Positions 2,811 to 35,708 of a stretch of DNA of 36,137 nt are shown one piece after another. Origin of the DNA: a virus; IMG/VR virus record IMGVR_UViG_3300030103_004598, positions 1-36,137 of that record. One strand, given 5' to 3'. The number at the start of each line of letters is the position of its first letter. Position 1 is the first letter of the stretch. The notes below the pieces were generated by a model that worked only from the letters and a program-made list of their open reading frames with translations, did not search any database and had not been told where the DNA came from. The translations under genes were made by a program, and so were the position numbers.

Positions 2811-2828
2811 CGCTCCCCCTAAAATGTA

Positions 2829-2910: not shown

Positions 2911-3930
2911 TTATTTCACCTTTTCAGCCAAGTTTAAGAAAGGTAAAGGTGAAACGTCTTCAGGATCCATGATAATTAAATGATTCCCGTTCTGGATCTT
3001 AGTTAAAGCCCCCATGCTCTCTAGTTTAAGGTAGCCATCAAGTGTTAATACTTCAATGACTCTCTTGTTAGCTTCCGCTTGAGCATTCGCCTTAACAACA
3101 ATAGATTCAGCTTCAATTCTAGACGCTTCTAAGGTTGCATTAGCAGAAATAAGAAGGACTTCACGTTTCCTTTGAGCATTAATCTTAGCAGCTTCTAAAT
3201 CAGCATTAGCAGAGATTAATAAAACCTCCTTTTTCTTTTGAGCTTCAATGATTTCTGATCTTTTATCAGCCTCAGCTCTAGCTTCTTTGCGTTCTTGGTC
3301 TACTTTGAACTTTTTAAGCTCTTCTTTTGCTTTTTCTGCCTCTTGAGCTGCTTTTTTCTTCCTTAAAACAGCATCAGTGATGATTTTTGGTAGAATTACG
3401 TTTCGAATCAATAAAGCTTCTACTTTTATGCCTTTCCTGGACAATGCAGACATAGAAATCATCAATTCAGTCTGGATTCTTTGCTGAACACTCTGAATAT
3501 AGAAATCTTCTGCCTTTTCAACGGTCTTTCCAAGCTCTCTTAGCTGACTTCTAAGTAATGGTAGCATATGAACCGCCATAACTTCGCTAGGTGTGCCAGT
3601 CTCTTTCAACATTTCAGGCGCTTTCTCTTTAATAAGCCTATATTGAATAGAGATATCAAAGGATGTGATTAATTGATCCTTAGAAGGCACTCCCATTTGC
3701 TCTTTTTGAGTCTTTTGCTTAGAATCAAATAAAGTTACTTTCAAAAAAGGATTTACAAAGTGCATCCCCTCACTAAAAGGATCTTTCTTGACTTTCCCAA
3801 ACAATGTCCCCACACCAACGTTTCCTGCTGGAACAGTTTCTATAAAGGAAGATAGCATCATAACCGCAATTAAAATACTAGTTCCCACTAAACCCATCTT
3901 TACCCAGCTTACTCCTTTTTCGTTCCCCAT
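2911..3930 (-). CDS. SPFH/band-7 (prohibitin/HflC-like) membrane protein
   Basis: This 339-residue protein has a short N-terminal region, one transmembrane helix (VGTSILIAVMMLSSFIETV, about residues 15-33), an SPFH domain (GNVGVGTLFGKV through LIRNVILPKIITDAV) and a long charged coiled coil (about 195-300). This is the layout of bacterial HflK/HflC, stomatin and prohibitin proteins, which form membrane-bound rings or cages. The start at 3930 has GGAGAG seven bases upstream; an earlier in-frame ATG at 3978 lacks an SD. The coiled coil contains a 22-residue duplication (VLLISANADLEAAKINA, then VLLISANATLEASRIEA). In bacteria such proteins modulate the FtsH protease and membrane microdomains. 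In a phage, effects on FtsH, exclusion of other phages or lysis timing are possible but unproven. Confidence 0.8.
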   Translation of the reverse strand: MGNEKGVSWVKMGLVGTSILIAVMMLSSFIETVPAGNVGVGTLFGKVKKDPFSEGMHFVNPFLKVTLFDSKQKTQKEQMGVPSKDQLITSFDISIQYRLIKEKAPEMLKETGTPSEVMAVHMLPLLRSQLRELGKTVEKAEDFYIQSVQQRIQTELMISMSALSRKGIKVEALLIRNVILPKIITDAVLRKKKAAQEAEKAKEELKKFKVDQERKEARAEADKRSEIIEAQKKKEVLLISANADLEAAKINAQRKREVLLISANATLEASRIEAESIVVKANAQAEANKRVIEVLTLDGYLKLESMGALTKIQNGNHLIIMDPEDVSPLPFLNLAEKVK

Positions 3931-3964
3931 CTGCTTACTCTCCTTTGTTTTTGTTTTCCCGTTA

Positions 3965-4075
3965 TTAAAATTCTTCAATTATGCGAGTATCCCAGAAAGT
4001 TACTAACTTCATTGGAGGACCCCATTTCTTTTTCCTTCTACGCTTATTTAAAGTTTTGTATTTACTAGTTCTCAC
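3965..4075 (-). CDS. Tiny basic protein, GTG start
   Basis: This 36-residue protein is strongly basic in its N-terminal half (NKRRRKKKW). It starts with GTG in a GTGA overlap (4075-4072) with the preceding coiled-coil gene and has GGAGGAG about eight bases upstream. It ends 34 bases before the SPFH start. The basic run could bind nucleic acid. The coupling and good SD make it likely to be translated. Confidence 0.45.
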   Translation of the reverse strand: MRTSKYKTLNKRRRKKKWGPPMKLVTFWDTRIIEEF

Positions 4076-4404
4076 AAGAATGCTCCTCCATACTTAGCTC
4101 TTGAACGTCTAAGCTGAGAATCTCTTCTTTGGAAATCAATTTCGAATCCAACAGATTCTTTCTCTTCTTTAATGATTCCGACCGCTTGGTAAGCATTAAA
4201 CAGTAAATCAGCAGAATTTTGGTCTCTTAATTCCTTCTTTAGCTTGATTAACTCTTTTTTGGTTTCAAATAGCTCTTTAGAAGCTCCATTAGTTTGTGAC
4301 TTTAAGTCCTCAATGTTCTTTTGAAGCCCTTTTATAGCCTTTTTGTAGTCTTCATTCTTATGACTTAGCCTATCTACTTGTTTTTGTAGCTTTGATTTAA
4401 ACAT
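4072..4404 (-). CDS. Coiled-coil protein of unknown function
   Basis: This 110-residue soluble protein has heptad-like K/E/L-rich sequence over about residues 5-70 and a basic C-terminal segment (RRDSQLRRSRAKYGG). The ATG at 4404 is favoured over a GTG one codon earlier because GGGGGAG is better spaced and the ATG overlaps the upstream stop (TGATG). It sits directly after a small membrane-anchored coiled-coil gene and a small hydrophobic protein. The trio may be a membrane or lysis-associated complex, but nothing in the sequence proves it. Confidence 0.6.
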   Translation of the reverse strand: MFKSKLQKQVDRLSHKNEDYKKAIKGLQKNIEDLKSQTNGASKELFETKKELIKLKKELRDQNSADLLFNAYQAVGIIKEEKESVGFEIDFQRRDSQLRRSRAKYGGAFL

Positions 4405-4622
4405 CACTCCCCCTCTCTAAGCTTTGCTTGCTGTTGTGAGTTTATTTGTAGCTCGTATTTCTTGATTATTGCGTCTTTTTCTTTAAGCTTTGCTTGCTGT
4501 TGTGAGTTTATTTGTAGCTCGTATTTCTTGATTATTGCGTCTTTTTCTTTAATTTCTGAACCACGGTCACAAATATTCGAAATTACAGCTAGAAACACGA
4601 TGCCCCATAAAAGCATTCTCAT
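4404..4622 (-). CDS. Membrane-anchored coiled-coil protein with exact 22-residue duplication (i-spanin-like layout)
   Basis: This 72-residue protein begins with a hydrophobic helix (MLLWGIVFLAVISNIC, residues 3-18) and then consists of two identical 22-residue units, each containing DAIIKKYELQINSQQQAKL. A single N-terminal anchor followed by a periplasmic coiled coil is the layout of an inner-membrane spanin subunit. No lipobox is present and no outer-membrane partner is recognised, so spanin is only a possibility. The start ATG overlaps the upstream stop (ATGA, 4622-4619), with AAGGGG upstream. The duplication is exact at DNA level and therefore probably recent. Confidence 0.6.
   Translation of the reverse strand: MRMLLWGIVFLAVISNICDRGSEIKEKDAIIKKYELQINSQQQAKLKEKDAIIKKYELQINSQQQAKLREGE
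4419..4550. repeat. Exact 66-bp tandem duplication
   Basis: Bases 4419-4484 and 4485-4550 are identical over 66 bp. The unit is 22 codons long, keeps the frame, and lengthens the coiled coil of the gene at 4404-4622. The lack of any difference points to a very recent duplication or strong homogenisation. Confidence 0.95.
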
Positions 4623-4810
4623 AGTATCCCCTTTATTAGTTCATATAGCCCATAGGCCACTTGTTTGCCGATAATCAGCATTAAAAATAACCCTAGCAGA
4701 ACATCGATTCGTTGTTTCAATGTATTAAGCTTTTCTACCAATGCCGCTAGGGTTAATAGTACCGCTTCTAGTCCGTAAGAAGCATATTTATAGTTTTCTA
4801 GCACCGTCAA
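4619..4810 (-). CDS. Small hydrophobic protein, possible holin; non-ATG start
   Basis: This protein of about 63 residues has one moderately hydrophobic segment (YGLEAVLLTLAALVEKL) and a strong transmembrane helix (IDVLLGLFLMLIIGKQVAYGL), separated by a short basic linker. Size and layout fit a small phage holin, and the next gene has a spanin-like layout, but no endolysin lies nearby. No ATG is available: TTG at 4813, TTG at 4810 and GTG at 4804 all follow AGGGGA. 4810 is chosen for SD spacing. It overlaps the upstream ribbon-helix-helix gene. Function is an inference. Confidence 0.5.
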   Translation of the reverse strand: MTVLENYKYASYGLEAVLLTLAALVEKLNTLKQRIDVLLGLFLMLIIGKQVAYGLYELIKGIL

Positions 4811-5144
4811 CAAATCCCCTTAAAAAGTCATCGTTATCCGTGTTTTGAGAGAGATTTAGTCCTACAACATGCCCTTTCGCATACTCTTCTGACTCTCCTA
4901 AAGATATTCTAGTGTCTTCAATGATTGTACGGTTAACAGCAGTCACTCCAAAGTTAGCATTGACAATAGTCTCGTTGTCTCGAATAGGCGTTGAGAATAA
5001 AGCATCTGCTAGGAACTCATCACGCAGTATTCCACGATTCTTAGCACCAGTACGCAACCATTCTAAAGTAGAACGAGGAAGCTTTATTTGTGCAGTTACT
5101 AGCCTTCCTGGATCAGTGTTTCTTGATACTTTCTTTTTACCCAT
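4788..5144 (-). CDS. Ribbon-helix-helix-like protein
   Basis: This 118-residue protein has a segment at about residues 14-50 (LVTAQIKLPRSTLEWLRTGA, then GILRDEFLADAL) that fits the strand-helix-helix pattern of Arc/CopG DNA-binding proteins: a short beta strand, then two helices joined by a turn at the Gly. The C-terminal half (to FLRGFVDGARKL) is unassigned. AAGGAA precedes the ATG. It lies directly downstream of the terminase large subunit gene in the same transcript. It could be a regulator of the leftward operon or a DNA-binding packaging accessory. Confidence 0.55.
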   Translation of the reverse strand: MGKKKVSRNTDPGRLVTAQIKLPRSTLEWLRTGAKNRGILRDEFLADALFSTPIRDNETIVNANFGVTAVNRTIIEDTRISLGESEEYAKGHVVGLNLSQNTDNDDFLRGFVDGARKL

Positions 5145-5154
5145 TTTATTTCCT

Positions 5155-6765
5155 TTATCTTGTTTTAAACACTTTATTTCGGTCTAAACCTCCACGCTTT
5201 TTATGAGAGTATTTACCTGTCCTCTTATACACAGCCGCACGGTTCTTGGATACTGTACCCATTAAGGGTTTCTCTAAAAGAACTACTGCTGCTAGCGAGT
5301 GGGCAATGACGCAATCATCGTGGTTTTTCCCAGTTGCACCCATGCGAGAACTCATGCCCGCATCTAATCTAACAAATGTTTTCATTTCTTCAAAGAGTTT
5401 TTTACTTCTAGGCTCAATTTCTCTTTCCCTCATTAAAGAATTCAACGCATCAATCATTACTGGCTTCGTTGATACTGTAGTCTTCCAGCCGAGTTTCTTG
5501 ATTCTTTGATTGTTCGCTTGATCGTATCGGACTTGTCTGTAAATATTGGGGTAATGCAAGTGTTTTTGAAGCCTATTTAACACTGAGTCTCCCATATTGT
5601 TTATTTCTGGGATAAGTAAAGCAGTATTGTACCACCTTCCCAGAGAATTAAGAATATTTGAGAACAAATCAGTATCTATGTGGGCTCTAAACTCTGCAAC
5701 TTGTACTTTAGTGGAGCGCTCATACACTGCAGCAACACTCCAATCATGCTTCTCTAAGCCTTCAGCAATGTCCGCTCCAATGACATATTGACCTCCAGCT
5801 TTAGGCTTTTGAAAGATCTTAAGCATTCCTCTGTCATTAGGGTAGAATACGCCTTTACCAGTTAAATCACCAAGCTGGAAACGATATTCTGGCTTGTTTA
5901 AGTAGTCTGCAATCATTTCTTGGTTGAATACGGTGTGCCCAGTAACAATAAATGCTTCAACATCATTACGAGGATACTCTTGCTTGAACTTTAGTAAAGC
6001 CTCCGTTCCTTGCGCTTCTGCTCTTCGGTATCGCATGTCGTACCAAGACTGGTCTCTACTGGGGTCGCCGTTCCATGAGATGAAGTTACATTTGAATCCG
6101 TTTTGACCGTCTTTACCCGCTGCCCAGGTTGCTTGAAAAAACTTGTCATAGCCGTTAGCCGTACTGATAATGATAGCGGGTCCACCTGTTTTCTCCAATG
6201 TCGGTTCTGCTGCTGTCCAGATTGTTGGCGCATCTACCATGAACGCAGCTTCATCCATGATTAACATGTTTAAAGTGTCAGAACGACCAGCTTCAGGGTT
6301 GGCAGATTCAGCCTTCATTTGTGATTCTACACCTTTAAGCTTTAAAAGCAAGCGATTTGATGTCTCTACGGGGTAAAGATTATCACGTATAATAGAAGGG
6401 AGATGATCATACATGAACTTAAGCTTGGCAAGGGCTGATATCGCTGCCTCTTCCTTCCTGGAGACAACTAGTCCCTCGAAATATTTCTGTTTCAGCATAT
6501 GCCATAAAGCAAAAGCTAAAGCAAGCCAAGTAATCCCAATTTGTCGGCTTTTAAGGGTCTCGTTAAGTTGATTCCCCATCCATATACTAATTTGATCTTT
6601 TTGTGCTGGCCATAATTTAAAAGGGATAGGTCGCCCAGCTTTTTGATCTTTTAGCATACAATAGTTTTCAATGAAAAATATACAATCGTCCATTGCCTTA
6701 ACCCAGTCGTCAGCAGCTCTTTCTAGCTGGATATCGAGCAATTCGTCTTCTTTTTGGCTACTCAT
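5155..6765 (-). CDS. terL: Terminase large subunit (packaging ATPase and nuclease)
   Basis: This 536-residue protein has the two-domain layout of the DNA-packaging motor. The ATPase half shows the terminase-type Walker A variant KSRQIGITW (residues 72-80), Walker B LIMDEAAF (168-175) and coupling motif IIISTANG (198-205). The nuclease half shows the acidic residues of an RNase H-like fold: D332 in GADIAEG, E387 in IPEIN, and D483/D484 in NHDD. Length is normal for the family. GAGGTG five bases before the ATG fixes the start. It is transcribed away from the portal gene and is on the opposite strand from the small subunit, an unusual arrangement. Confidence 0.95.
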   Translation of the reverse strand: MSSQKEDELLDIQLERAADDWVKAMDDCIFFIENYCMLKDQKAGRPIPFKLWPAQKDQISIWMGNQLNETLKSRQIGITWLALAFALWHMLKQKYFEGLVVSRKEEAAISALAKLKFMYDHLPSIIRDNLYPVETSNRLLLKLKGVESQMKAESANPEAGRSDTLNMLIMDEAAFMVDAPTIWTAAEPTLEKTGGPAIIISTANGYDKFFQATWAAGKDGQNGFKCNFISWNGDPSRDQSWYDMRYRRAEAQGTEALLKFKQEYPRNDVEAFIVTGHTVFNQEMIADYLNKPEYRFQLGDLTGKGVFYPNDRGMLKIFQKPKAGGQYVIGADIAEGLEKHDWSVAAVYERSTKVQVAEFRAHIDTDLFSNILNSLGRWYNTALLIPEINNMGDSVLNRLQKHLHYPNIYRQVRYDQANNQRIKKLGWKTTVSTKPVMIDALNSLMREREIEPRSKKLFEEMKTFVRLDAGMSSRMGATGKNHDDCVIAHSLAAVVLLEKPLMGTVSKNRAAVYKRTGKYSHKKRGGLDRNKVFKTR

Positions 6766-6790
6766 GTAACACCTCGTTTCATTTTTTTTC

Positions 6791-6818
6791 TTGACATGTT
6801 TTATATCATGGTTATATG
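6791..6818 (+). promoter_or_regulatory. Promoter of the late structural operon
   Basis: TTGACA at 6791-6796 and TATATG at 6813-6818 are separated by 16 bp in the 102-bp gap between the divergent terminase and portal genes. TGTAACAC occurs at 6765-6772 and again at 6819-6826, the second within a perfect inverted repeat TGTGT-A-ACACA (6817-6827) that overlaps the -10. These could be binding sites for a regulator controlling both directions. Confidence 0.6.
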
Positions 6819-6867
6819 TGTAACACAGTATACACTTTTAAATCAAATCAAATTTAGAGGGTAGATA

Positions 6868-8901
6868 ATGGTTGACTTAAAAATTAAGAAAAAAGCTAGG
6901 ATTGAACAAGACAATCGAGCTAAGTCTCTGTACTCCGAAAAACCGATCATCTTTCCCAGAAGAGATATTCCAGAAAAAGTGGCTGATTATGTATCAGAAT
7001 ATGAAGAATCTAAAGATTGGCAGAGAAGGAACTATGAGGAAGACTGGATTAGAAACTCAGCAGACTTCCAATCTATCCCAGGAGAAATATTTAAGCCTTG
7101 GGCTGATGCAAATGACTATTTCATGCCTTCGACAAATATTACTATTGAGAATTATGTGGCAAGATTCATGGAGTCAATCAGAGGCGCTAGAGAGTTCATT
7201 TCTTGTCGTCCAAGGGGGCGAGACGACATAGAGAGTGCAGCGATTGATGAACATCTATTACGTTACCAGTTTGAAAACGAAATGGACGGATTTAAGAACT
7301 CTGAACTAAATTTTAGAAATAAATGTATCTATGGAACTTCAATAAGCACTGTTCCTTATGTTATTGATGATAGACAAGTCAAAGTTGATGGAGTTTTCCT
7401 GTTTGATAATGAAAAAGACGCTTTTGTCATGGAAAGCGCAGAAGAGCAACCAGAAGAATCTTTAAGAGGGCCAAAAGATTTCTCTGATTTATCAGAAGAT
7501 GAAATTGATATGATTCTTGTCTCTAGCCCTTCTTTTGAAATAAGAGATTTGTTCGAGACTGTCAGAGTTAAAGATGGGCCTCAACTAGAAGTTCAGGACA
7601 TCATGAATGTTAAGATTGATCCTAATGGCGGGGATGATATCGATAAACATCAATTCACTTACATTGAAACTGTTGAAACGTTAGATACTATTAGGCGTAA
7701 AGTAGCCCAAGGGATCTATGATGAGAAGCAAGCTGATATGTTAGCTTCTACTTTATCTGATGATCAAGAGTTAGTTCCATCTGATGAGAATGGCTCCATT
7801 CGAAGACGTAATGCCGCTGAAGGGATCAGTGATGAGAACTACGGTATTAAAGGAGGAGTTAGGATTTGGATTAGATACGGTAGAGATGTTCTGCCGGATT
7901 TAGACCTAGAAGTAGAAACGATCAACATTATTGCTAATGGTAAGTATTTATTAAGAGCTCAAAAGACACCATTTGTTTATAAGGGAGTTCCTTACAGACC
8001 TATCCTTGTAGATAGATTTATCCAGATTCCACACAGATTCTACGGAATGGGTATCGCTGAAGTCTTGAAGGACCTTAACTATCTTTTAAACCATTTAGTT
8101 AACCAGGTCTTAAATCATGGGGATATCAGCAACTCTCCTACTTTAATTTATCCTCAAGATGGACAATTCGATCCAACTACAGCTATTAATGGCCCTGGTC
8201 AAACGATTGCTTCAGATAATAGCGACGGGTTTAAATTCTTAATCACCCCAGATATTAAAGCTTCTCAGGTGCAAATGATTCAGTTTGTAGAGAGCTTTCT
8301 TCAAAAGTCATTAGGGATTGCTGATTTTTCTTTGCAATCATCAGACGCTACAAAGACAGCACATGGGCTAGCAAATCAATTAAGAGAGCAGAATAGAAGA
8401 ATTGATTTCTACGCCAGCAAGTCACATGAGGATTACTACCGTAAAATGTTTGAGATCGTTTTAAAAATGGATCAAACGTTTATGGACGATAGAGAAATTC
8501 GATTAATCTCAGATAAGAGAAGCTGGGAATTTAAATGGATTGAATCTAAAAAAGTGAATCCAGAAGTTGATATTAGGATCTTTGCTGACTCTGTTACTTC
8601 AAGTAGAGAGTTCGATCAGATTAAATGGAATACATTATTGCAAGTGTCTCAACAAATTGTTGATCCAAACACGCAAGCACCTAAATATAATACGGTTAAG
8701 ATTACAGACCAATTATATAAAGCATTCGGGGAAGAGTATCCTGAAGTTTACCAGACAGAACAAACAGTGCAACAACAAGATCTACCTGGAGAAGAAGAAG
8801 GGCAAGGCGGTTCATTACAGGGAGAAACTCCTGGGATTGAAGGACCTAGTCCTACAGAGATCAATGCAGGTGGATTAGGGGATTTGGATTCACAACAATG
8901 A
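6868..8901 (+). CDS. Portal protein (P22-type)
   Basis: This 677-residue protein is similar in size and style to the P22 gp1 portal family. Its N-terminal part (SKDWQRRNYEEDWIRNSADF, then NITIENYVARFMES) and central stem/wing region (YRPILVDRFIQIPHRFYGMG, then LNYLLNHLVNQVLNHGD) resemble podovirus portals, with an acidic Q/E/G-rich C-terminal tail. The portal forms the dodecameric ring at one capsid vertex through which DNA is packaged and ejected. GAGGG lies before the ATG. It is the first gene of the late operon and couples by ATGA (8898-8901) to the next. Confidence 0.85.
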   Translation: MVDLKIKKKARIEQDNRAKSLYSEKPIIFPRRDIPEKVADYVSEYEESKDWQRRNYEEDWIRNSADFQSIPGEIFKPWADANDYFMPSTNITIENYVARFMESIRGAREFISCRPRGRDDIESAAIDEHLLRYQFENEMDGFKNSELNFRNKCIYGTSISTVPYVIDDRQVKVDGVFLFDNEKDAFVMESAEEQPEESLRGPKDFSDLSEDEIDMILVSSPSFEIRDLFETVRVKDGPQLEVQDIMNVKIDPNGGDDIDKHQFTYIETVETLDTIRRKVAQGIYDEKQADMLASTLSDDQELVPSDENGSIRRRNAAEGISDENYGIKGGVRIWIRYGRDVLPDLDLEVETINIIANGKYLLRAQKTPFVYKGVPYRPILVDRFIQIPHRFYGMGIAEVLKDLNYLLNHLVNQVLNHGDISNSPTLIYPQDGQFDPTTAINGPGQTIASDNSDGFKFLITPDIKASQVQMIQFVESFLQKSLGIADFSLQSSDATKTAHGLANQLREQNRRIDFYASKSHEDYYRKMFEIVLKMDQTFMDDREIRLISDKRSWEFKWIESKKVNPEVDIRIFADSVTSSREFDQIKWNTLLQVSQQIVDPNTQAPKYNTVKITDQLYKAFGEEYPEVYQTEQTVQQQDLPGEEEGQGGSLQGETPGIEGPSPTEINAGGLGDLDSQQ

Positions 8902-9233
8902 TTTATAATTTAAGACCACAATCGAAAGCACAACTTGAAGAATTGCAATCTTCTTTAAAGCGTCTTTCGAAAGAAAGCCTTCATTTCCTGATTAATCAAG
9001 AACTGAGAGCTAGAATTGATAGCGTTCGCAAAAGCGAATCTAATGCAGATGAGAAGATCGGAGCGATCAACCAGCTAATGGACATTACTGATTTCTTCAA
9101 TGGTTCACTTATGAATGAGTTGAACCAGATGATAGGGAAATATGATGTCCATGAAGAAAGTGACACAGCCACAAAAACGCTTGAAAAAGCAAAAAAACAA
9201 GAAGAATTCAAAGCGAGAGTTCTAAAAAAATAA
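8898..9233 (+). CDS. Hypothetical coiled-coil protein between portal and scaffold
   Basis: This 111-residue, mostly helical, charged protein starts MIYNLRPQSKAQLEELQ and ends in a Lys-rich tail. Its ATG overlaps the portal stop. Its position between portal and scaffold genes, conserved in many podoviruses, suggests a head-assembly accessory. No specific family is recognised. Confidence 0.65.
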   Translation: MIYNLRPQSKAQLEELQSSLKRLSKESLHFLINQELRARIDSVRKSESNADEKIGAINQLMDITDFFNGSLMNELNQMIGKYDVHEESDTATKTLEKAKKQEEFKARVLKK

Positions 9234-9242
9234 GGATTTAAT

Positions 9243-10082
9243 ATGTCAAATGAATCTATTTTAGCTTCTGTCGATGATGAGAACCTACTAGCTTCGCAAT
9301 CAGCGGATGAACTAGAGAAACTTATTAATCAGAAGCTACAAGAAAGCCCTCCAGAAGAAGAGGAGCCGTTACAAGTAATTGAAAGTGAACCTGAAGTAGA
9401 ACAAATCGAAGAAGTTCAAGAAGCTGAAGAAGTGGAAGAACCTCAAGAAGAAGTCGCTCAGGAAGTTGAAGAGGATGAAGAGGACGATGAGGGCGATGAA
9501 GAGCTGAGAAATGCTCCTATCCCTGATCAGAATTTTCAATCCGTTATGACTCAGAATCAACAATTGATTAATGAGTTAATCAAACGAAACAACCCTTTAC
9601 CAGAATCTACAGACATTAATCCTAGTAAGACTAACGATGAGCTGCTTGACGACTTATCCAAAAATCCTAAAGCATTTATTGAGGATATCCTTAATGAAAA
9701 ACTTCAGGGTCAAAATGCAGATATCCAAAAACTCCGCAAGGAGCAAGCTTGGAATGCTGCAATGGGTAACGAGAGGTTTGCTAAGTTAGCCCCTAAGATT
9801 AAAGCTCTGCAAGATGAGTTCCCTAATATTTCATACGGCAATGATTTGAAAACTTTAGAGGGATTTATGCTTATGGCAGAAGGAATGAAAGCTCAAGAGA
9901 ATACGGCGAAAGCTGCTAAGAAAGAAGCAAAGGCTGCTAAGAAAAAAGCGAAAGCTAAGAAAGTAGCCTCTTCTATCGCTCCTGGGTCTAAACCTGTTCC
10001 TGCTAAGAAAGCAAAAAAACCTCAAAGCATGTCATCTGCTGAACTTGAAAAGGAACTTATTAGATTAGGCGCTGGTATCTAA
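9243..10082 (+). CDS. Scaffolding protein
   Basis: This 279-residue protein has an extremely acidic N-terminal third (long Glu/Asp runs around residues 35-88), a central helical region, and a Lys/Ala-rich C-terminus (KAAKKEAKAAKKKAKAKK). Immediately upstream of the capsid gene, this is the typical profile of a phage scaffold: a helical, charged protein whose basic C-terminal end docks on the capsid protein during procapsid assembly. AAGGA precedes the ATG. Scaffolds diverge quickly, so the call rests on composition and position. Confidence 0.75.
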   Translation: MSNESILASVDDENLLASQSADELEKLINQKLQESPPEEEEPLQVIESEPEVEQIEEVQEAEEVEEPQEEVAQEVEEDEEDDEGDEELRNAPIPDQNFQSVMTQNQQLINELIKRNNPLPESTDINPSKTNDELLDDLSKNPKAFIEDILNEKLQGQNADIQKLRKEQAWNAAMGNERFAKLAPKIKALQDEFPNISYGNDLKTLEGFMLMAEGMKAQENTAKAAKKEAKAAKKKAKAKKVASSIAPGSKPVPAKKAKKPQSMSSAELEKELIRLGAGI

Positions 10083-10099
10083 TTTAAGGAATAAAGAAC

Positions 10100-11197
10100 A
10101 TGGCTGATCAAAAGACAACCGATGCTGGAGTTGCCTTTCTTTTAAAAACTTTTTACGATAAGAAGTTAATTGAAAGGCTCGAACCTCAATTGCATTTATA
10201 TCAACTAGCTCAAAAGCGCCCTATCCCTTCAGGAGCAGGTAAAACTATTGAGTTCACTAAATACAACAACATGTTGCCAATGACTGCTGACAGTAACGAG
10301 CTTAGTTCAACTCAAGTTTACGTTTCTGGTCAAACTATCAGTGCAACATTGACTACTAGGCACCAATACGTTCAGTTCTCTTCTATGTTGAAGATGACTG
10401 CAATCGATCAAAACTTGCTTGAAGCAATTAATGTTTTGGCTGATTCTGGTGCTAGATCTGTTGAATTTAAGATCAGAGAAAAACTAATCGGAATCGGATT
10501 TGCTAACAGATCTTCTGTTGCAAATGCTTCCATTAACACTTCTCACAGTAACATCAACTATCAAGGGATCATCACTGGTACTTCTGCGCAACAACACCAC
10601 AGAATTTACAGTGACTTTGCTCTTTTGAACGACAAAGCGCGACTTGGCGCATCTGCATCTATTACTGATACAGTTGCTGGTTCTGCAATGACTGTTCGAA
10701 CTGTTGGTAACGCTGTAACATACTTGGAAAACCAAGATGCTAAGCCTATGGATGGTGTCAACTTTGTAATGCTTGCTAACCCAACTACTGTTGATCAGTT
10801 GATGGTAGATCCTGCATTTAAGACTTGGAACCAATTCGGTAACGCAGACAAGATGTTCAACAACGAAGTAGGTATGATCCGTGGGGTTCGAATCCTCAAG
10901 TCTACCTTCGGTTGGAGATACGTTTATTCTGCTGCGCCTTGGTCAACTGCTTCTGGAGCTTTAAACGCTTCTCTAGTTGTTGGTAAAGATGCTTTTGCTG
11001 TTACAGAAATCAATGGCGGGAAAGGCACTAAAGGTATCGAGCTAATCGTGAAGAATTCTGGCTCTGGAAACACTGCAGACCCTGCAAACTTAATCCACAC
11101 TGCTGCGACTAAGTTAGTAATGGCTGAAGCTATCTTGAACAAGTCTTCTGCTGCTTGGATTTTAACTTCAGACAGAGCGGTTTCCTCTGGATCTTAA
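10100..11197 (+). CDS. Major capsid protein, N4-gp56 family
   Basis: This 365-residue protein has the N4-gp56-family pattern: LLKTFYDKKLIERLEPQLHL near the N-terminus, IPSGAGKTIEFTKY, then QYVQFSSMLKMTAIDQNLLEA, a VMLANPTTVDQL strand and VRILKST-FGW in the middle, and a C-terminal K-GIELIVKN segment. This HK97-fold protein builds the icosahedral shell. Codon use looks more regular and slightly richer in C-ending codons than the neighbours, as expected for a highly expressed gene. AAGGA precedes the ATG. A small GC-rich hairpin follows the stop. Confidence 0.9.
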   Translation: MADQKTTDAGVAFLLKTFYDKKLIERLEPQLHLYQLAQKRPIPSGAGKTIEFTKYNNMLPMTADSNELSSTQVYVSGQTISATLTTRHQYVQFSSMLKMTAIDQNLLEAINVLADSGARSVEFKIREKLIGIGFANRSSVANASINTSHSNINYQGIITGTSAQQHHRIYSDFALLNDKARLGASASITDTVAGSAMTVRTVGNAVTYLENQDAKPMDGVNFVMLANPTTVDQLMVDPAFKTWNQFGNADKMFNNEVGMIRGVRILKSTFGWRYVYSAAPWSTASGALNASLVVGKDAFAVTEINGGKGTKGIELIVKNSGSGNTADPANLIHTAATKLVMAEAILNKSSAAWILTSDRAVSSGS

Positions 11198-11207
11198 TTA
11201 ACCTAAT

Positions 11208-11231
11208 AGAGGGGTGGGAAACTGCCCCTCT
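11208..11231 (+). terminator. Hairpin after the capsid gene (attenuator or weak terminator)
   Basis: AGAGGGG (11208-11214) pairs with CCCCTCT (11225-11231) around a 10-nt loop. It is followed by TACTTTAAGG, not a clean U-run. It may raise capsid mRNA relative to downstream genes by partial termination or by 3'-end protection. Confidence 0.45.
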
Positions 11232-11248
11232 TACTTTAAGGAGCAAAT

Positions 11249-11560
11249 ATGCAAATTATTAGAGATGGTGTTAAGGCCCCAGTAAGACAATATCGAGGAT
11301 GTCTTTTGTTTGAATATAAAGGGCTAAGCACTCTTGATGTATATGATAAACATGAAGGCGATCAAGTAATTAAACTAATCACTAAAAACAACGGTAATAT
11401 TCAGATTTATATTACTCCAAAAGTACAATTGATTAAGGAGGTAGTACGACCTACTTCTGTAGAGATAGCTGAAGAACCAGCAAAAGTTGATGGAATAAGA
11501 CCAAGAAAACAAACACTTACTGCGAAGGATAAATTAAAATGTCGGGACGAAGCGAGCTAG
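11249..11560 (+). CDS. Hypothetical protein after the capsid gene
   Basis: This 103-residue protein starts MQIIRDGVKAPVRQYRG with predicted beta structure in its first half and a basic C-terminal tail. AAGGAGC precedes the ATG. Its 3' end overlaps the start of the next gene by 22 bases. Position suggests a head-completion or decoration role, but no motif supports this. Confidence 0.6.
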   Translation: MQIIRDGVKAPVRQYRGCLLFEYKGLSTLDVYDKHEGDQVIKLITKNNGNIQIYITPKVQLIKEVVRPTSVEIAEEPAKVDGIRPRKQTLTAKDKLKCRDEAS

Positions 11561-28409: not shown

Positions 28410-28593
28410 GATTATCCTACTATCTATTATAGTTGCTCTGACTAACATCAGAATATGTTGGCTGAAAAAAGAAATAGAAAGGCTTGATGGGTTTGAGAAA
28501 TTCGTTATCGATAAGTTAGCAACGTTTGCAAATAGACAAGTAACTCGTGAAGATGTTGAGAGAATCATAAAATGGAAAGGGGGAACGAGATGA
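28402..28593 (+). CDS. Small membrane-anchored protein
   Basis: This 63-residue protein has an N-terminal transmembrane helix (IILLSIIVALTNIRICWL, 4-21) and a charged cytoplasmic or periplasmic helix (KKEIERLDGFEKFVIDKL). AGGGGAGCGAG precedes the ATG. It overlaps both neighbours (8 bases upstream, ATGA downstream). Function is not recognised. Confidence 0.55.
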   Translation: MSEIILLSIIVALTNIRICWLKKEIERLDGFEKFVIDKLATFANRQVTREDVERIIKWKGGTR

Positions 28594-29387
28594 CTGAGAA
28601 ATCATTCTACGAAAGAGTGGCAGAGATTCAAGCTAATCTCAAAGCACCAAAGAATCAATTTAATAAGTTTGGCGGTTACAAGTACAGAAGCTTAGAAGAC
28701 ATCCAAGAAGGTTTTAAGAAAATATCTAATGGCCTAATACTTAACGTTACTTATCAAATGATTGAACTCTCAATGCCAGTTTCATTTCAAGTGAAAGCGA
28801 AGAATGGAATGAGAGACGTAATTTGCAATGCTTATGTGCTAGCAAATGCCTCAATCACTGATGGCAAAGAAAAAGTAGAATCAACGGGTGTTGCAGGGAT
28901 TGACTTTAATAGACCTGGAATGGATGTGGCGCAAAGTTTCGGTTCCAGCTGTTCTTATGCAGGCAAGTATGCTTGTGGAGGACTTCTTTTGCTAGATGAT
29001 ACTAAAGACGCTGATACAACGAATGCCCACGGTAAATCAAAGCCTAAAGCTGAACCTGCAAAGCCAGCACCTAGAGCCCCAGCCGCAAACCCTAATGCAA
29101 TTAGTGAAGCTCAGAGAAAGCGTTTGTTTGCTATTGGTAAGTCACACGGCCTAAACGCAGCAGAGCTAAAAGCGATTACTTTGGAATGTGGTTTTGAATC
29201 AAGCAAAGACATCACTAAAGCAAAGTATGAAGAAGTAACTAAAGCTATTGAGAATTACAAAATTTTAAAAGAAAATACTAGGATAGAGGCAACCTTAGAC
29301 CGTAGCGGGGAGCAGGAGGAGATTGACGCTCTAATTGATGAGAAACTCGCAGAAATACAACATGGTGATGCTGGTGATAGACTTTGA
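28590..29387 (+). CDS. erf: ERF-family single-strand annealing protein
   Basis: This 265-residue protein starts at MTEKSFYERV, with AAAGGGGG upstream and an ATGA overlap; an ATG 18 bases earlier is in the previous gene. QANLKAPKNQFNKFGGYKYRSLEDI is the hallmark opening of ERF recombinases, followed by the central core with SSCSYAGKYACGGLLLLDDT and a Pro/Ala linker leading to a small C-terminal helical domain (SEAQRKRLFAIGKSHGL). ERF anneals complementary single strands, for example to circularise the phage genome. It is paired with a RecB-like nuclease next to it. Confidence 0.85.
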   Translation: MTEKSFYERVAEIQANLKAPKNQFNKFGGYKYRSLEDIQEGFKKISNGLILNVTYQMIELSMPVSFQVKAKNGMRDVICNAYVLANASITDGKEKVESTGVAGIDFNRPGMDVAQSFGSSCSYAGKYACGGLLLLDDTKDADTTNAHGKSKPKAEPAKPAPRAPAANPNAISEAQRKRLFAIGKSHGLNAAELKAITLECGFESSKDITKAKYEEVTKAIENYKILKENTRIEATLDRSGEQEEIDALIDEKLAEIQHGDAGDRL

Positions 29388-30019
29388 AAACTAAAGCTCA
29401 CACAGTATACAAAAACAAGGCTGGAAAGAGAGTGCCAGGGGTAACGACTATCCTTGGTGTTATGAATAAGCCAGCTCTAGTTTATTGGTCTTGGGATCTT
29501 GGTATGCAGGGAATAGATTATCGTAAATTTAAGGACGATAAAGCTGAGATAGGCACATTGGCTCATGAACTAATTAGAGCTGATTTAAGAGGGGAAACTC
29601 TCTCTGTAGACGATTGGTCTAAGAATCAAATTGATCAAGCTGAAGTATGCTTTAAGAAGTATTTAGAGTGGAAGAAGCGCCATGTTATTGAGCCGATACT
29701 TGTAGAGCAGTATTTAGTATCTGAGCAATATCAATACGGAGGGTCTATTGACCTTTATTGCTTGATTGATGGAGTTGCTGAGTTAGTGGATCATAAGACT
29801 TCAAAAGCTATTTATGGCGAGAATGGGCTACAATTGGCTGGTTACTGGCATCTATTAAAAGAGAATGGCTATGAAGTAAGTGCAACAAGAATCTTAAGAA
29901 TTGGTAGAGACGCAGAAGAGGGCTTTGAAGAGAAGAACTATCCTAAAATGGAAAGATACTTTGATGCTTTCAAACATTGTTTAGACTTATACAACATAAA
30001 AAAGGAGTTAAAGCTGTGA
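29384..30019 (+). CDS. PD-(D/E)XK exonuclease (RecB/Cas4-like), partner of ERF
   Basis: This 211-residue protein has the RecB-family motifs GTLAHELI (57-64, His motif), YGGSIDLY (118-125, D123), ELVDHKTS (133-140; D136-x-K138) and QLAGYW (150-155). It would chew double-stranded ends to give single strands for ERF. The start is TTG at 29384 in a TTGA overlap; no ATG is better placed. This nuclease/annealer pair is the functional equivalent of lambda Exo/Beta. Confidence 0.8.
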   Translation: MKTKAHTVYKNKAGKRVPGVTTILGVMNKPALVYWSWDLGMQGIDYRKFKDDKAEIGTLAHELIRADLRGETLSVDDWSKNQIDQAEVCFKKYLEWKKRHVIEPILVEQYLVSEQYQYGGSIDLYCLIDGVAELVDHKTSKAIYGENGLQLAGYWHLLKENGYEVSATRILRIGRDAEEGFEEKNYPKMERYFDAFKHCLDLYNIKKELKL

Positions 30020-30880: not shown

Positions 30881-31107
30881 TGCAAAGCGACGTATGGACT
30901 AAGTTCAAAAGAACATCAGGGAGTGAATGCTTTCCATCTAACAATCCAGGTGATTCACCTTTTGATACGTTTGAATGCATTGATTGCAGTCATACTTTTA
31001 GCCTGAGGATGTATGGAATAAATATCTATACAAAATCTTTAGAAGAGCAAGCCTTAGATACATTGAGAGATCACTTACTAGTAAAACATATCATGGAGGA
31101 GAAATAA
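30880..31107 (+). CDS. Small C2H2-like zinc protein
   Basis: This 75-residue protein has CIDC (34-37) and a C-terminal LRDHLLVKH (H64, H69), giving a C-x2-C...H-x4-H arrangement that can bind one zinc. GAGGAGGAG precedes the ATG. It lies directly before SSB, with a TAATG overlap. A DNA-transaction role is a reasonable guess. Confidence 0.6.
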   Translation: MQSDVWTKFKRTSGSECFPSNNPGDSPFDTFECIDCSHTFSLRMYGINIYTKSLEEQALDTLRDHLLVKHIMEEK

Positions 31108-31493
31108 TGGGATCATATAATAAAGCAACATTTGTGGGGAATCTAACAAGAACACCAAAAGAGGTGGCGACTAAATCTGGAAAGACTATGGCTTCATTTG
31201 GGCTAGCAGTAAACGACAGATTCAAGAAAGATGGTGAGACTTTATTTATAGATATATTAACCTTCGGTAGGACTGCTGAGTTCTGCTTGCAGTACTTAGA
31301 AGTTGGAGTAAACATTCTAGCAGAGGGGAATATCAAGCTTGGAATGTGGACCGACAACCAAGGCAAATCTAAACCAACACTTACTTTAATGGCTAATGAT
31401 GTGATTTCTAACAGCAGGGCTGAAAAGAAAGAAAAGCCTGAAGACGACCCACACTTTAACTTACCACCACAAGATGACGAAATACCATTTTAA
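31107..31493 (+). CDS. ssb: Single-stranded DNA-binding protein
   Basis: This 128-residue OB-fold protein has NKATFVGNLTRTPKEVATKSG (5-25), FLDI-type core FIDILTFGRTAEFC (47-60) and VNILAEGNIKLGMW (68-81). It ends in an acidic tip DDEIPF, matching the SSB C-terminal tail that recruits replication and repair proteins. It has an upstream TAATG overlap. It works with the ERF/nuclease pair and during replication. Confidence 0.93.
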   Translation: MGSYNKATFVGNLTRTPKEVATKSGKTMASFGLAVNDRFKKDGETLFIDILTFGRTAEFCLQYLEVGVNILAEGNIKLGMWTDNQGKSKPTLTLMANDVISNSRAEKKEKPEDDPHFNLPPQDDEIPF

Positions 31494-31595: not shown

Positions 31596-31760
31596 GTGAA
31601 TCAAGCGATACTTCGGGCAGGATTCGATTGGAGTGGGAGTAGGAGTGGGAGTGGGAGTAGGAGTTGGAGTAGGAGTAGGAGTGGGAGTGGGAGTAGGAGT
31701 TGGAGTAGGAGTGGGAGTTGGAGTAGGAGTAGGAGTTGGAGTGGGAGTGGGGTTAACTAA
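31596..31760 (+). CDS. Ser-X dipeptide-repeat protein, copy 1 (GTG start)
   Basis: This 54-residue protein begins [12 protein letters not shown] and then is a strict Ser-X repeat with X = Gly, Arg or Trp to the end (GVN). Every repeat serine is AGT and every X codon is NGG. Bases 31626-31756 of the + strand contain no C and have a GG every six bases. The leader (AAAAAGGAATATAAAA, 31580-31595) is repeated before the gene at 31791. The head is almost identical to that of the gene at 32147. It is not a recognised family, and the low-complexity body would be disordered. The conserved head and SD argue for translation. Confidence 0.55.
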
Positions 31761-31790: not shown

Positions 31791-32150
31791 ATGAATATAG
31801 ATATAAATGAGCTAACACTAGGACAAGTTAAAGAATTAAATAATATGATGAATAAAAATTCAAATGTTAAGGAATCAAACCAACCATTCAAAATAGGCAA
31901 AGCTTACTTATTCCGACTAGTGACGCACATTGACATAGGTGTCGTGAAAGACGTTGGAGAGAAAGAAATTGTTTTAACGAATGCGTCTTGGATTGCTGAC
32001 ACTGGCCGTTACAATGAGTGTTTTAAAAAAGGTGTTGATGGTTTAAATGAGGTGGAACCCTATCCTTTAGATCAAGAAGTCATCATCGGTCGCGGGGCTC
32101 TTGTAGATTCTACGATTTGGAACCATAAATTACCTACGGAAGCTAAATGA
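31791..32150 (+). CDS. Conserved small phage protein between the Ser-X repeat genes
   Basis: This 119-residue protein has a compact C-terminal domain: [20 protein letters not shown] (36-55), [20 protein letters not shown] (59-78) and [19 protein letters not shown] (97-115). I have seen similar small domains, with an -A-W-TGR- core, in other phages and recall them beside low-complexity repeat proteins, but cannot confirm it here. The SD module AAAAAGGAATATAAAA is shared with copy 1. It overlaps copy 2 (ATGA, 32147-32150). The function is unknown. Confidence 0.65.
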
Positions 32151-32338
32151 TGAGCCAAGCGATATTAAGAGCCGGTTATGATAACTCTAACTCTAGGTCT
32201 TTGTCTGGGTCTTGGTCTTTGTCTGGGTCTTGGTCTGGGTCTGGGTCTTGGTCTGGGTCTAGGTCTTGGTCTTGGTCTAGGTCTGGGCCTAGGTCTAGGT
32301 CTTTGTCTAGGTCTGGGTCTAGGTCTTTGTCTAATTAA
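32147..32338 (+). CDS. Ser-X dipeptide-repeat protein, copy 2
   Basis: The protein has 63 residues from ATG 32147, or 62 from ATG 32150. It begins [16 protein letters not shown], then Ser-X repeats with X = Gly, Arg, Trp or Leu. Here the serines are TCT and X codons are NGG or TTG, unlike the AGT serines of copy 1. The QAILRAG-aromatic-D head is shared with copy 1 (31596). A second frame across the same repeat is also open and would give a Gly-Leu repeat; the Ser-X frame is preferred because of the head and the coupling to 31791. Confidence 0.6.
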   Translation: MMSQAILRAGYDNSNSRSLSGSWSLSGSWSGSGSWSGSRSWSWSRSGPRSRSLSRSGSRSLSN

Positions 32339-33147: not shown

Positions 33148-33252
33148 GGGGCAGTGGCGGAATGGTAGACGCTAAGCGACTCATTGTTCAGTAATGCCGA
33201 GTCGTTAAAGGCTAGCAAAAGAACGTTGCAGGTTCGAATCCTGCCTGCCCCA
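33148..33252 (+). tRNA. tRNA-like gene with abnormally long anticodon arm (possible UCA anticodon)
   Basis: Acceptor GGGGCAG (33148-33154) pairs perfectly with CTGCCCC (33245-33251), discriminator A. The D-arm is GCG-loop-CGC (33157-33172) with the Leu-like GGAATGGTAGACGC style. The T-arm is GCAGG-TTCGAAT-CCTGC (33228-33244). Between D- and T-arm there are 55 nt, about 20 more than a class II tRNA allows. Instead of a normal anticodon arm there is an 8-bp stem AGCGACTC/GAGTCGTT extended by ATT/AAT and capped by the 7-nt loop GTTCAGT, which would present UCA. CCA is not encoded. It could be an intron-containing or degenerate tRNA, a special tRNA, or a tRNA-derived structure. The amino-acid identity is uncertain. 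Confidence 0.6.
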
Positions 33253-33279
33253 TTTTTAATAAAAAGCGAAAGGGAGATT

Positions 33280-33456
33280 ATGGAAATAGGGAAAATATTA
33301 GAACTAGAGCTAAAAAACAACACCCGAATTTTAGAGCATAAACTAAAAGTTGATAGGCGTGAATGCCAGGAATCAAAGATTAATTTTGGCGTTTATATTA
33401 TTAGTGAGCAAATTAAGGCAAACACGATGGCGTTATTTGCAGGATTAGACGGATAA
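33280..33456 (+). CDS. Small hypothetical protein at the head of the module array
   Basis: This 58-residue helical protein starts MEIGKILELELKNNTRIL. The start is set by GCGAAAGGGAGATT immediately upstream, the common SD half of the 42-bp module described below. An upstream ATG (33184) would read through the tRNA-like gene. Function is unknown. Confidence 0.55.
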   Translation: MEIGKILELELKNNTRILEHKLKVDRRECQESKINFGVYIISEQIKANTMALFAGLDG

Positions 33457-33477
33457 AGAGAATAAAAGGGCAATATT

Positions 33478-33687
33478 ATGATTAAGCAGATTACAATTAT
33501 TACAGCTCCAGGCCCAAAAACTTACAAAGTTGGCCAAAAACTAGCTGGTGGAGTTGTCTCTACAATAAAGCTTGATACTTTGCGTTTTAATGGTGATCCG
33601 TTCTCGCAGTATTGCGGATATAGTCAAGCTGGGAAGTTACTATTTAATGTTGACCCGATGTGTCCTCATGAATGCGAGTATTTATAA
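33478..33687 (+). CDS. Small hypothetical protein
   Basis: This 69-residue protein (MIKQITIITAPGPKTYKVGQKLAGG...) is predicted to be beta-rich, with a C-terminal VDPMCPHECEYL. Its leader differs from the shared module (AAAAGGGCAATATT before the ATG). The first full 42-bp module starts five bases after its stop. Confidence 0.55.
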   Translation: MIKQITIITAPGPKTYKVGQKLAGGVVSTIKLDTLRFNGDPFSQYCGYSQAGKLLFNVDPMCPHECEYL

Positions 33688-33730
33688 TTATTATTGACAG
33701 CTAAAGTAAAATAAAAGCGAAAGGGAGATT

Positions 33731-33967
33731 ATGAGAGAATTGAAAGCGAATATTATTGAGAGATGGTTTTTGAAAAGAATAATCCGTAAAAATGTTATGC
33801 AAGGCAGCCATTATGACCGGATACTTAGTCTATACAATTTGATAATTAGTGCTTGCAGAGAGGAATTCACAGAAGACAATAAGCCAACACTAGATGGTTT
33901 TTTAAGCGAAATCCATCAATCGGCATTGGAGAGAGATAATTACAATAAATATAAGACAGGGTTGTAA
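33731..33967 (+). CDS. Small hypothetical protein in the module array (1)
   Basis: This 78-residue helical protein starts MRELKANIIERWFLKRIIRK, basic in its first third. It starts inside the first full 42-bp module, whose GGGAG is the SD. No family is recognised. Confidence 0.55.
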   Translation: MRELKANIIERWFLKRIIRKNVMQGSHYDRILSLYNLIISACREEFTEDNKPTLDGFLSEIHQSALERDNYNKYKTGL

Positions 33968-34010
33968 TTATTATTTACAACTAAAGTAAAATAAAAGCGA
34001 AAGGGAGATT

Positions 34011-34157
34011 ATGGGATTAGATGAATTAAGAGAAAAAATTGCTGAAGAGGTCGGGTATTCATTATTAGAAGGTGGTGGTTGTGATCACGGGGAAAGACAG
34101 TACGGCACAAGTGATGATGGGTTAATTAAGCTTTGCTATGAAATTTTAAATAAATAA
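34011..34157 (+). CDS. Small hypothetical protein in the module array (2)
   Basis: This 48-residue protein starts MGLDELREKIAEEVGY and includes GGGCDHGERQYGTSDDG. It is fixed by the second 42-bp module at its start; its stop TAA sits at the first base of the third. Function is unknown. Confidence 0.5.
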   Translation: MGLDELREKIAEEVGYSLLEGGGCDHGERQYGTSDDGLIKLCYEILNK

Positions 34158-34195
34158 ATTGACAACTAAAGTGAAATAAAAGCGAAAGGGAGATT

Positions 34196-34423
34196 ATGAG
34201 AGAGATAGACTTAGATATTAATAATAGATGGGAACAAGGAACCCCTCACCATCCAGAGTCTGAGAAGCTGATGGAAGAGCTCATGGAGGTAGATTTTAAA
34301 TATTGTGATGACTATTTTTGTTGGAAAAAGGGTGGTGACGGAGACAACGGGGAAACCTTTATGTATGAGCTAGATATAATCTTTGAAAGACGTGATCAGC
34401 TTAAAGAAATTATTGACAGCTAA
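34196..34423 (+). CDS. Small acidic hypothetical protein in the module array (3)
   Basis: This 75-residue protein (MREIDLDINNRWEQGTPHH...) ends KEIIDS, with the last codons and stop encoded in the fourth module copy. It is acidic with aromatic residues (DDYFCWKKGGDGDNG). The module SD precedes it. Family unrecognised. Confidence 0.55.
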   Translation: MREIDLDINNRWEQGTPHHPESEKLMEELMEVDFKYCDDYFCWKKGGDGDNGETFMYELDIIFERRDQLKEIIDS

Positions 34424-34449
34424 AGTAAAATAAAAGCGAAAGGGAGATT

Positions 34450-34833
34450 ATGGGACATTATACAGAGATTTATATAAATGCAGACTTAAAAGAAGAAACA
34501 CCACAAGAAGTCATAAATGTTTTAGCTGCTATGTGTAGTAAAAACGATAAAGAGGATAGCTTAAAAGATAAGCCTGGCCGTTGGTCGTACCTGTTCGGAA
34601 ACGGCAGTTACTACACGCCATTAACCAGTTGTGCAAATTTAACGTTCGATGATATTGGCGGCCATTATTCTATACTTGGTAAAGGCGATATTAAAAACTA
34701 CGAAGACGAAATAGAAGAGTTCTTTGCCTTTATTAAACCTTGGTGTGAAGATGAGTTCATAGGCTACTACCGCTACGAAGAGCAGCGAGAGCCTACCTTA
34801 GTTTATACAGACGAATTAAATATTGACAACTAA
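34450..34833 (+). CDS. Conserved hypothetical phage protein in the module array (4)
   Basis: This 127-residue alpha/beta protein begins MGHYTEIYINADLKEETPQEV and has GRWSYLFGNGSYYTPL and WCEDEFIGYYRYEEQREPTLVY. I recognise the MGHYTEI...L-ED-TPEEV opening as recurrent in phage genomes, but know of no function. The module SD precedes it and the half-module at 34821-34845 encodes its C-terminal NIDN. Confidence 0.6.
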   Translation: MGHYTEIYINADLKEETPQEVINVLAAMCSKNDKEDSLKDKPGRWSYLFGNGSYYTPLTSCANLTFDDIGGHYSILGKGDIKNYEDEIEEFFAFIKPWCEDEFIGYYRYEEQREPTLVYTDELNIDN

Positions 34834-34866
34834 AGTAAAATAAAATACGGTGACTGAATCACAAAT

Positions 34867-34968
34867 GACCAAGGAGTGAGCAAAATGAAATTGTATTCTT
34901 TTAAAAATATCTCCCTTTCATGGGATTCATGTGTCTTCTCAAAGTCACTGTTGCTTCACTCCTTGGTC
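34867..34968 (+). promoter_or_regulatory. 17-bp inverted repeat that can mask an SD upstream of the initiator gene
   Basis: GACCAAGGAGTGAGCAA (34867-34883) pairs with TTGCTTCACTCCTTGGTC (34951-34968) through 13 bp, a 1-nt bulge and 4 bp. The upstream arm contains AAGGAGTG, a strong SD seven bases before ATG 34885; the downstream arm holds its complement. The loop carries CTCCCTTTC, the inverted form of the module SD GAAAGGGAG. This is consistent with a translational switch or a mini-inverted repeat. Confidence 0.6.
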
Positions 34969-35028
34969 GGAATATCTCAACAAAATGGATCTCGTGGAAG
35001 GGTATTTTTATGTCTAATGGATACATAA
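34885..35028 (+). CDS. Possible 47-residue leader peptide overlapping the inverted repeat
   Basis: A reading frame from ATG 34885 (MKLYSFKNISLSWDS...) runs through the loop and second arm and overlaps the initiator start by 19 bases. Its SD, AAGGAGTG, is well spaced. The peptide is Ser/Leu-rich and not recognised. It could be a translated leader controlling the initiator rather than a functional protein. Confidence 0.35.
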   Translation: MKLYSFKNISLSWDSCVFSKSLLLHSLVGISQQNGSRGRVFLCLMDT

Positions 35029-35708
35029 AACTTCATAGAAAATTTCTAAAGTGGGAATGGTTTCAAGATTCCAACACTATGAAATTATTTTTATACGTTC
35101 TTTTGTCTGCAAATCATGCTGAAGCAAGGTGGCAGGGAATCACTATTCTCAGGGGCCAGTTACTTACAGGTCGACGCAAACTCGCAGAAAACCTAGGTTT
35201 ATCAGAAATGAATGTGCGTTCAATAATAAAACGGCTAAAATCAACCAACGAACTAACCATCAAATCTTACTCGAAATACTCGATTATAACGGTAGTTAGG
35301 TATGATGAGTATCAATCAAGTAACCAGCAAACTAACCAGCAACTAACCAGCAACCAACCAGCAACTAACCAGCAACTAACCACTAACAAGAAGAATAAGA
35401 ATGAAAAGAAGGAAGAGAAGGAAGAAATAGATATTGTTTTTTTTGAGGCTTATAAAATTTATCCTGGTTCTAAATCTAAAACGGATAACTTTAAAACGTT
35501 CAAGAAGCACAAAGATTGGAAAGAATGCTTACCCCTTTTAAAGCCAGCAGTTGAAAAAGAGGTTGGACACAAGAAGGCTTTAAAGTATTACGGTGAGTTT
35601 TGCCCAGACTTCAAGAACTTTAAAACCTGGTTAAACCAGAGATGTTGGGAACAAGAGTTTACGGCACGAGAGATGCCAAAGGAGGAGGAATACGATGGAC
35701 TATTCTAA
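35010..35708 (+). CDS. Replisome-organizer / replication initiator protein (DnaD/O-like)
   Basis: This 232-residue protein has an N-terminal winged-helix domain (GYIKLHRKFLKWEWFQDSN, ITILRGQLLTGRRKLAENLG, EMNVRSIIKRLKSTNELTIK, then IITVVRYDEYQ) typical of phage replisome-organizer proteins that bind the origin. A Gln/Thr/Asn-rich linker (about 107-127) is encoded by an iteron-like array. The C-terminal helical part is basic, with DFKNFKTWLNQRCW resembling a DnaD-like YxxxI-type helicase-loading region. GGAAGGG precedes ATG 35010; an ATG at 34920 lies in the leader hairpin. It would load host helicase and start theta replication. Confidence 0.7.
   Translation: MSNGYIKLHRKFLKWEWFQDSNTMKLFLYVLLSANHAEARWQGITILRGQLLTGRRKLAENLGLSEMNVRSIIKRLKSTNELTIKSYSKYSIITVVRYDEYQSSNQQTNQQLTSNQPATNQQLTTNKKNKNEKKEEKEEIDIVFFEAYKIYPGSKSKTDNFKTFKKHKDWKECLPLLKPAVEKEVGHKKALKYYGEFCPDFKNFKTWLNQRCWEQEFTAREMPKEEEYDGLF
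35321..35386 (+). repeat. Iteron-like 11-bp-period array inside the initiator gene (candidate origin)
   Basis: TAACCAGCAA occurs at 35321-35330, 35333-35342, 35344-35353, 35366-35375, with variants at 35355-35364 (CAACCAGCAA) and 35377-35386 (TAACCACTAA). Spacing is 12, 11, 11, 11, 11 bp. Because 11 is not a multiple of three, the array is not a protein-level repeat. Lambda-type phages carry their origin iterons inside the initiator gene in the same way. Confidence 0.7.

Follow-up and report, generated by a model that had tools for sequence, protein, structure and literature searches.

Near-identical 41-bp stop-to-start linkers in a row of unrelated small genes in a metagenomic phage record

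Six small genes and the repeats between them

The window, meaning the whole 36,137-bp stretch of DNA analysed here, is IMG/VR virus record IMGVR_UViG_3300030103_004598. It comes from a tailed phage and has terminase, portal and major head protein genes. The nearest annotated relatives of the head protein, at 22-29% identity, are those of unannotated human-gut phages and of Bacillus/Paenibacillus phages. At the right end of the window (33262-34845) lies an array of six small genes, designated A to F, which encode products of 58, 69, 78, 48, 75 and 127 aa from one strand. The array is flanked on one side by a tRNA-like gene, which is not called as a tRNA by ARAGORN, and on the other side by a DnaD-like replication gene. 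Genes for an ERF-type annealing protein, an exonuclease and a single-stranded DNA binding protein (SSB) lie 2-5 kb upstream on the same strand (Table 1).

Table 1. Module copies, array genes and neighbouring genes, with the basis of each assignment
Feature	Position	Strand	Basis
ERF-type single-strand annealing protein	28587..29387	+	PF04404, E 1.1e-28; phrog_155, E 1.7e-38
Exonuclease, likely ERF partner	29384..30019	+	phrog_298, E 2.4e-28
SSB	31107..31493	+	phrog_44, E 9e-27
tRNA-like gene, odd/extended anticodon-arm region	33148..33252	+	Rfam RF00005, 41.3 bits, E 1.4e-5
Module copy 0, 3' half only (Shine-Dalgarno and ATG), AAAGCGAAAGGGAGATTATG	33263-33282	+	pattern search
Gene A, no family	33280..33456	+	ORF, profile searches
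Gene B, no relative found	33478..33687	+	ORF, relative searches
Module copy 1, full	33693-33733	+	pattern search
Gene C	33731..33967	+	match in 202-kb viral contig L111
Module copy 2, full	33973-34013	+	pattern search
Gene D, no family	34011..34157	+	ORF, profile searches
Module copy 3, full	34158-34198	+	pattern search
Gene E	34196..34423	+	relatives in six viral contigs, 54-60% identity
Module copy 4, full, contains gene E stop codon	34412-34452	+	pattern search
Gene F, phrog_4334 (unknown function)	34450..34833	+	phrog match
Module copy 5, 5' half only (stop codons, no Shine-Dalgarno or ATG)	34822-34845	+	pattern search
DnaD-like helicase loader / replication gene, closes the array	35010..35708	+	phrog_2514, E 6e-35

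The array is punctuated by a 41-bp module, ATTGACARCTAAAGTAAAATAAAAGCGAAAGGGAGATTATG, which is present in four full copies and two partial ones, a 3' half and a 5' half. The initial annotation had arrived at the same count, and pattern searches give 5 and 5 matches vs 0.06 and 0.00 expected from dinucleotide shuffles. The full copies are identical at 39-41 of 41 positions: copies 1 and 4 match over all 41 nt, copies 2 and 3 carry one or two changes, and any pair other than copies 1 and 4 differs at 2 of 41 positions. No copies beyond those listed are found elsewhere in the window. The 3' half, copy 0, begins ten bases past the tRNA-like gene, outside the interval that had been delimited earlier, and the start region of gene B contains a degenerate module at most.

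The genes separated by the modules are unrelated, as had been claimed. Those between full copies are only 22-43% identical over the 60 nt past the start, and no similarity among them is detectable downstream of the start codon. The description of the module as running from the stop of one gene to the ATG of the next holds in outline, with the placement of the stop differing by gene. The genes ending at 34423 and 34833 use a TAA within the module, and the other three gene ends have their stop just 5' of the 41-nt core. Copies 1 and 2 remain alike upstream as far as the preceding TAA.

Two gene ends run into the repeat. The last residues of gene E (IDS) are encoded by module copy 4, and alignments of its relatives end at residues 68-71 of 75, the remainder of the protein running into the module. 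Likewise, module copy 5 encodes the C-terminal IDN of gene F, whose best relative aligns up to residue 119 of 127. In contig L111, a segment of a far longer frame matches residues 21-60 of gene C at 61% identity. Because of these module-encoded ends and the match of gene C to a longer frame, the array looks like a series of frayed ends of genes, each attached to a standard boundary, and its genes may be captured fragments. The family of gene F is patchy, being spread over 45 phage records with very different hosts, a scatter expected of a traded accessory gene.

Other repeats occur in the window. Three small genes at 87-308, 2100-2276 and 2273-2410 have a common N-terminal motif, MNYLG[RK]xL, and the first of these is flanked by a 20-bp direct repeat, TAGACAGCAAATGGGGTAGT, at 59 and 306. 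Two ORFs (31596-31760 and 32147-32338) share an N-terminus, M[NS]QAILRAG[FY]D, after which come different hexanucleotide arrays, GGAGTN and TCTNGG. A tandem duplication with a 66-bp unit and 98% identity is located in a coding region at 4414-4545.

Anatomy and rarity of the module

Every full copy has the same order of parts: stop codons in all three frames within the 5' part, an A/U-rich stretch, a Shine-Dalgarno-like GAAAGGGAG (GAAAGG/GGGAG) and the ATG. The presence of a Shine-Dalgarno and a start codon in the module, proposed from the outset, is thus borne out in each of them. Three-frame stops are also found in 29% of shuffles, with A/T richness as a partial explanation, and so they are too weak to be taken as proof of design. 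Predicted folding of the module (0 to -1.1 kcal/mol) is no better than that of shuffles and leaves the A/U-rich leader unpaired, and the module was therefore rejected as a hairpin. It was also rejected as a σ70 promoter: its TTGACA and TAAAAT, 7 bp away, have the wrong spacing, and a scan restricted to the σ70 type detected no promoter in the forward direction in any module. With neither structure nor promoter, the content of the module comes down to stop codons, leader, Shine-Dalgarno and start.

The leader of the DnaD-like gene (34846-35010) can adopt two mutually exclusive predicted structures. In one, a stem formed by GACCAAGGAGTGAGCAA and TTGCTTCACTCCTTGGTC surrounds a short leader ORF; in the other, a hairpin (z -2.9), the Shine-Dalgarno of the gene itself is paired with the ATCTCCCTTTC region. 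From this modelling, the leader looks like a translational attenuator. At 34909, the same leader has an 11-nt complement to the Shine-Dalgarno of the module (P about 0.001 within the 167-nt leader). An antisense RNA acting on the modules from this site was set aside because this hybrid does not rank with the strongest in the genome, and because pairing in cis with the Shine-Dalgarno of the replication gene is possible.

Two scans addressed how often such repeats precede starts. The first covered 89 sequences (0.9 Mb), consisting of the window and loci retrieved as its relatives, and compared the 38 nt upstream of the starts of unrelated ORFs at 80% identity; the window alone exceeded an isolated pair. 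The second used 28 nt upstream, 85% identity and three or more members, with Ounavirinae phages as positive controls. It recovered all of these controls, the window (with five starts that are at least 85% alike in the 28 nt upstream) and two further loci. One of these, L079, is the sole other fetched relative locus with three or more start-associated copies, and its repeat is a TAAA simple repeat. The other, from Synechococcus phage B23 (L094), was rejected as an artefact that lies inside pentapeptide-repeat coding sequence. Start-linkers arranged in this way are unusual among ERF-phage relatives, and this rarity indicates that ERF does not bring modules along.

Individual relatives provide smaller examples of repeats at gene boundaries. 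In locus L107, the relative of gene E is separated by one small gene from an ERF-like gene upstream. A terminator-like direct repeat of 24 bp (4956-5225) lies on either side of this relative and contains its stop codon; no other direct repeat of at least 20 nt was found in that 10-kb locus. In L108, a 61-bp repeat lies ahead of two unrelated starts.

Gene turnover at linkers and at other junctions

Exact searches for the module in viral and bacterial collections returned no match, and searches with the major capsid protein (MCP), DnaD, ERF and genes B, C, E and F found no relative that covers the array in the collections searched. The only close relative, L006, is 99.6% identical over window positions 1828-11393 (9.6 kb) and does not extend to the array. 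In its left arm, an additional 100-aa gene (L006 236-538) is present at about position 1470 of the window, and the 48-aa gene at window 1688-1834 is missing. Both differences span start codon to start codon, and their junctions share about 5-8 bp (GGTTATGA-like and ATGACKG), which are not the module. Single small genes come and go at start codons in the window's lineage without the 41-bp module. Gene turnover thus does not need the module.

Gene turnover at start-associated repeats can be followed in Mooglevirus, in the Ounavirinae. Citrobacter phage Mordin is reported to carry a SAS-like repeat of 26 bp ahead of eight of its genes (PMC4611695), and direct repeats are described for the corresponding region in the wV8 record (DR_1-DR_9) and in the Felix O1 paper. 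A search with the Mordin repeat matched 153 phage records, the majority with names that place them in the Felix O1 group. Pairwise alignment of the arrays of eight Mooglevirus genomes, in which pairs are non-independent, gain and loss are unpolarised and formal statistics are not applied, reveals small genes that some arrays have and others lack; most of the junctions fall within the repeat, with shared overlaps of 23-97 bp. Moogle is without the counterparts of Mordin genes 117, 113-114 and 111 (overlaps of 27-31 bp, within the repeat), KPS64 is without Sf13 gp44 (91 bp), and a difference between Mordin and Michonne has a 93-bp overlap. In addition, the repeat ahead of gene 108 in Moogle is clearly a chimera: the left part is the repeat found before Mordin gene 117, and the right part leads into the gene 116 homologue. 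This is the footprint expected of linker-linker recombination. Outside the array, the overlaps at most large indels between these pairs are 0-10 bp; the exceptions are 21 bp near Mordin 18885 and 33 bp in Moogle/Henu11. Within the array, the KPS64/Sf13 difference at 4388 has an overlap of 14 bp, and at the left edge (Mordin 8918/Moogle 6180) there is a divergent replacement rather than a clean junction. The proposal that module repeats allow genes to be swapped, deleted or added therefore finds its counterpart in the Mooglevirus arrays, the nearest analogue, whereas the turnover seen in L006 used microhomology of 5-8 bp.

For the window, the array is probably a small island of accessory genes in a tailed phage, with one 41-bp linker plus one gene as its unit, and the linker would be a gene boundary that doubles as homology for recombination. 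As a ready-made boundary, with its three-frame stops, unstructured A/U-rich leader, Shine-Dalgarno and ATG, the linker would terminate a gene or fragment placed between two copies and allow the next gene to be translated, to judge from the sequence. Since the copies are nearly identical, recombination between linkers is possible. Homologous recombination or single-strand annealing between copies, within one genome or between co-infecting phages, would remove, add or reorder genes and leave reading frames unbroken. The phage's ERF/exonuclease pair or the RecA pathway of the host could carry this out; a role for ERF is plausible only, because the gene is present but host RecA or replication slippage would leave the same footprints. 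The identity of copies 1 and 4, while copies 2 and 3 between them differ, fits exchange or homogenisation. By analogy, then, cassette behaviour of the array is likely. Such a linker bears on the question of how small genes of unknown function, of which phages have many, are gained and lost without damage to their neighbours: repeated stop-Shine-Dalgarno-start linkers would offer a direct answer, for which Mooglevirus supplies footprints at single-gene resolution.

A possible, though tentative, alternative is that the repeat is a regulatory start-associated element under selection, with a factor or RNA that binds the leader or Shine-Dalgarno and co-controls translation, recombination being a side effect or absent. 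Indeed, every full copy has the same register relative to a start codon and includes the Shine-Dalgarno, all variable positions fall outside the Shine-Dalgarno, and a role in regulating expression has been proposed for the SAS/ESAS of cluster K mycobacteriophages. However, near-identity over 41 bp exceeds what a Shine-Dalgarno requires, and the module contains no detected structure or inverted repeat for a regulator to read. Furthermore, no clear copy accompanies gene B of this row, and the 5' half past gene F has no Shine-Dalgarno or start to regulate.

It is rather unlikely that the module has evolved as a universal gene-capture linker, with the ERF/exonuclease pair loading foreign fragments as ORFs and the island yielding new small proteins, some of which would carry linker-encoded C-termini. 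Improbable, too, is the idea of passive leftovers from a recent linker-plus-gene duplication, in which the intervening genes were replaced or diverged and the repeats have no present role; copies as alike as these (0-2/41 differences) would have to be recent or homogenised, but unrelated genes are hard to reach by divergence while linkers keep 95-100% identity. The record is metagenomic, and unrelated fragments might have been joined at a short repeat during assembly, but this is very improbable given that the copies carry distinguishing substitutions and each joins different unique flanks in consistent strand and register. Scarcely credible is a site-specific cassette system of the integron type, which would share the row of promoterless small genes and the recurring boundary sequence: unlike integron cassettes, the array has no folded attC-like sites, its repeat includes the Shine-Dalgarno and ATG of the next gene, and the lack of an integrase stated in the initial annotation agrees with the absence of any match to the tyrosine recombinase family PF00589 in this record, which may be a fragment.

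Relation to known start-associated and boundary repeats

The reading of the array as linker-plus-gene units places it beside several known systems. Lambdoid phages have boundary sequences, conserved linkers at gene junctions that have been proposed as homology for gene exchange; unlike the module, these are common to several genomes at one junction and are not repeated within one. In T4-like phages, PeSLs are reportedly recurring intergenic sequences, proposed in work from Arbiol in 2010 and Comeau in 2014 to mediate small-gene shuffling. A PeSL combines an early promoter with a stem-loop, and neither is detectable in the module by the σ70-like scan and folding. These mobile regulatory cassettes are cited in PMC4503421.

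The SAS and ESAS of cluster K mycobacteriophages (PMC3203893, PMC12699233) are similar to the module in that unrelated genes, which lie outside the virion genes, have the repeat over their Shine-Dalgarno and start, and in that the repeat may contain the stop codon of the preceding gene. Unlike the SAS, the array lacks the 13-bp consensus GGGATAGGAGCCC, a search for which gave one 2-mismatch match elsewhere (0.34 expected); unlike the ESAS, the module has no 17-bp imperfect inverted repeat.

The Ounavirinae repeats occur in large myophages of enterobacteria. Like the module, they are near-identical direct repeats right before the starts of unrelated genes, and the window, too, has three or more such starts. 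They are about 26-97 bp long, extend from gene end to next start and accompany many small genes of unknown function on one strand. Unlike the module, they are longer, have hairpin-like GGGGTT...AAGCCCC parts and are present in more copies, and the repeat CCTAAACTGGAG is absent from the window (0 matches with up to 3 mismatches). Indeed, the module shares no sequence with the Ounavirinae repeat, SAS/ESAS or any searched record. By analogy, the module resembles the start-associated repeat of the Ounavirinae in its presumed working, not in its sequence, and the array probably belongs with it in a loose kind, the "start-associated linker array". If independent phage groups have evolved linkers of unrelated sequence, such arrays would mark sites of accessory-gene trading and could be used to find them.
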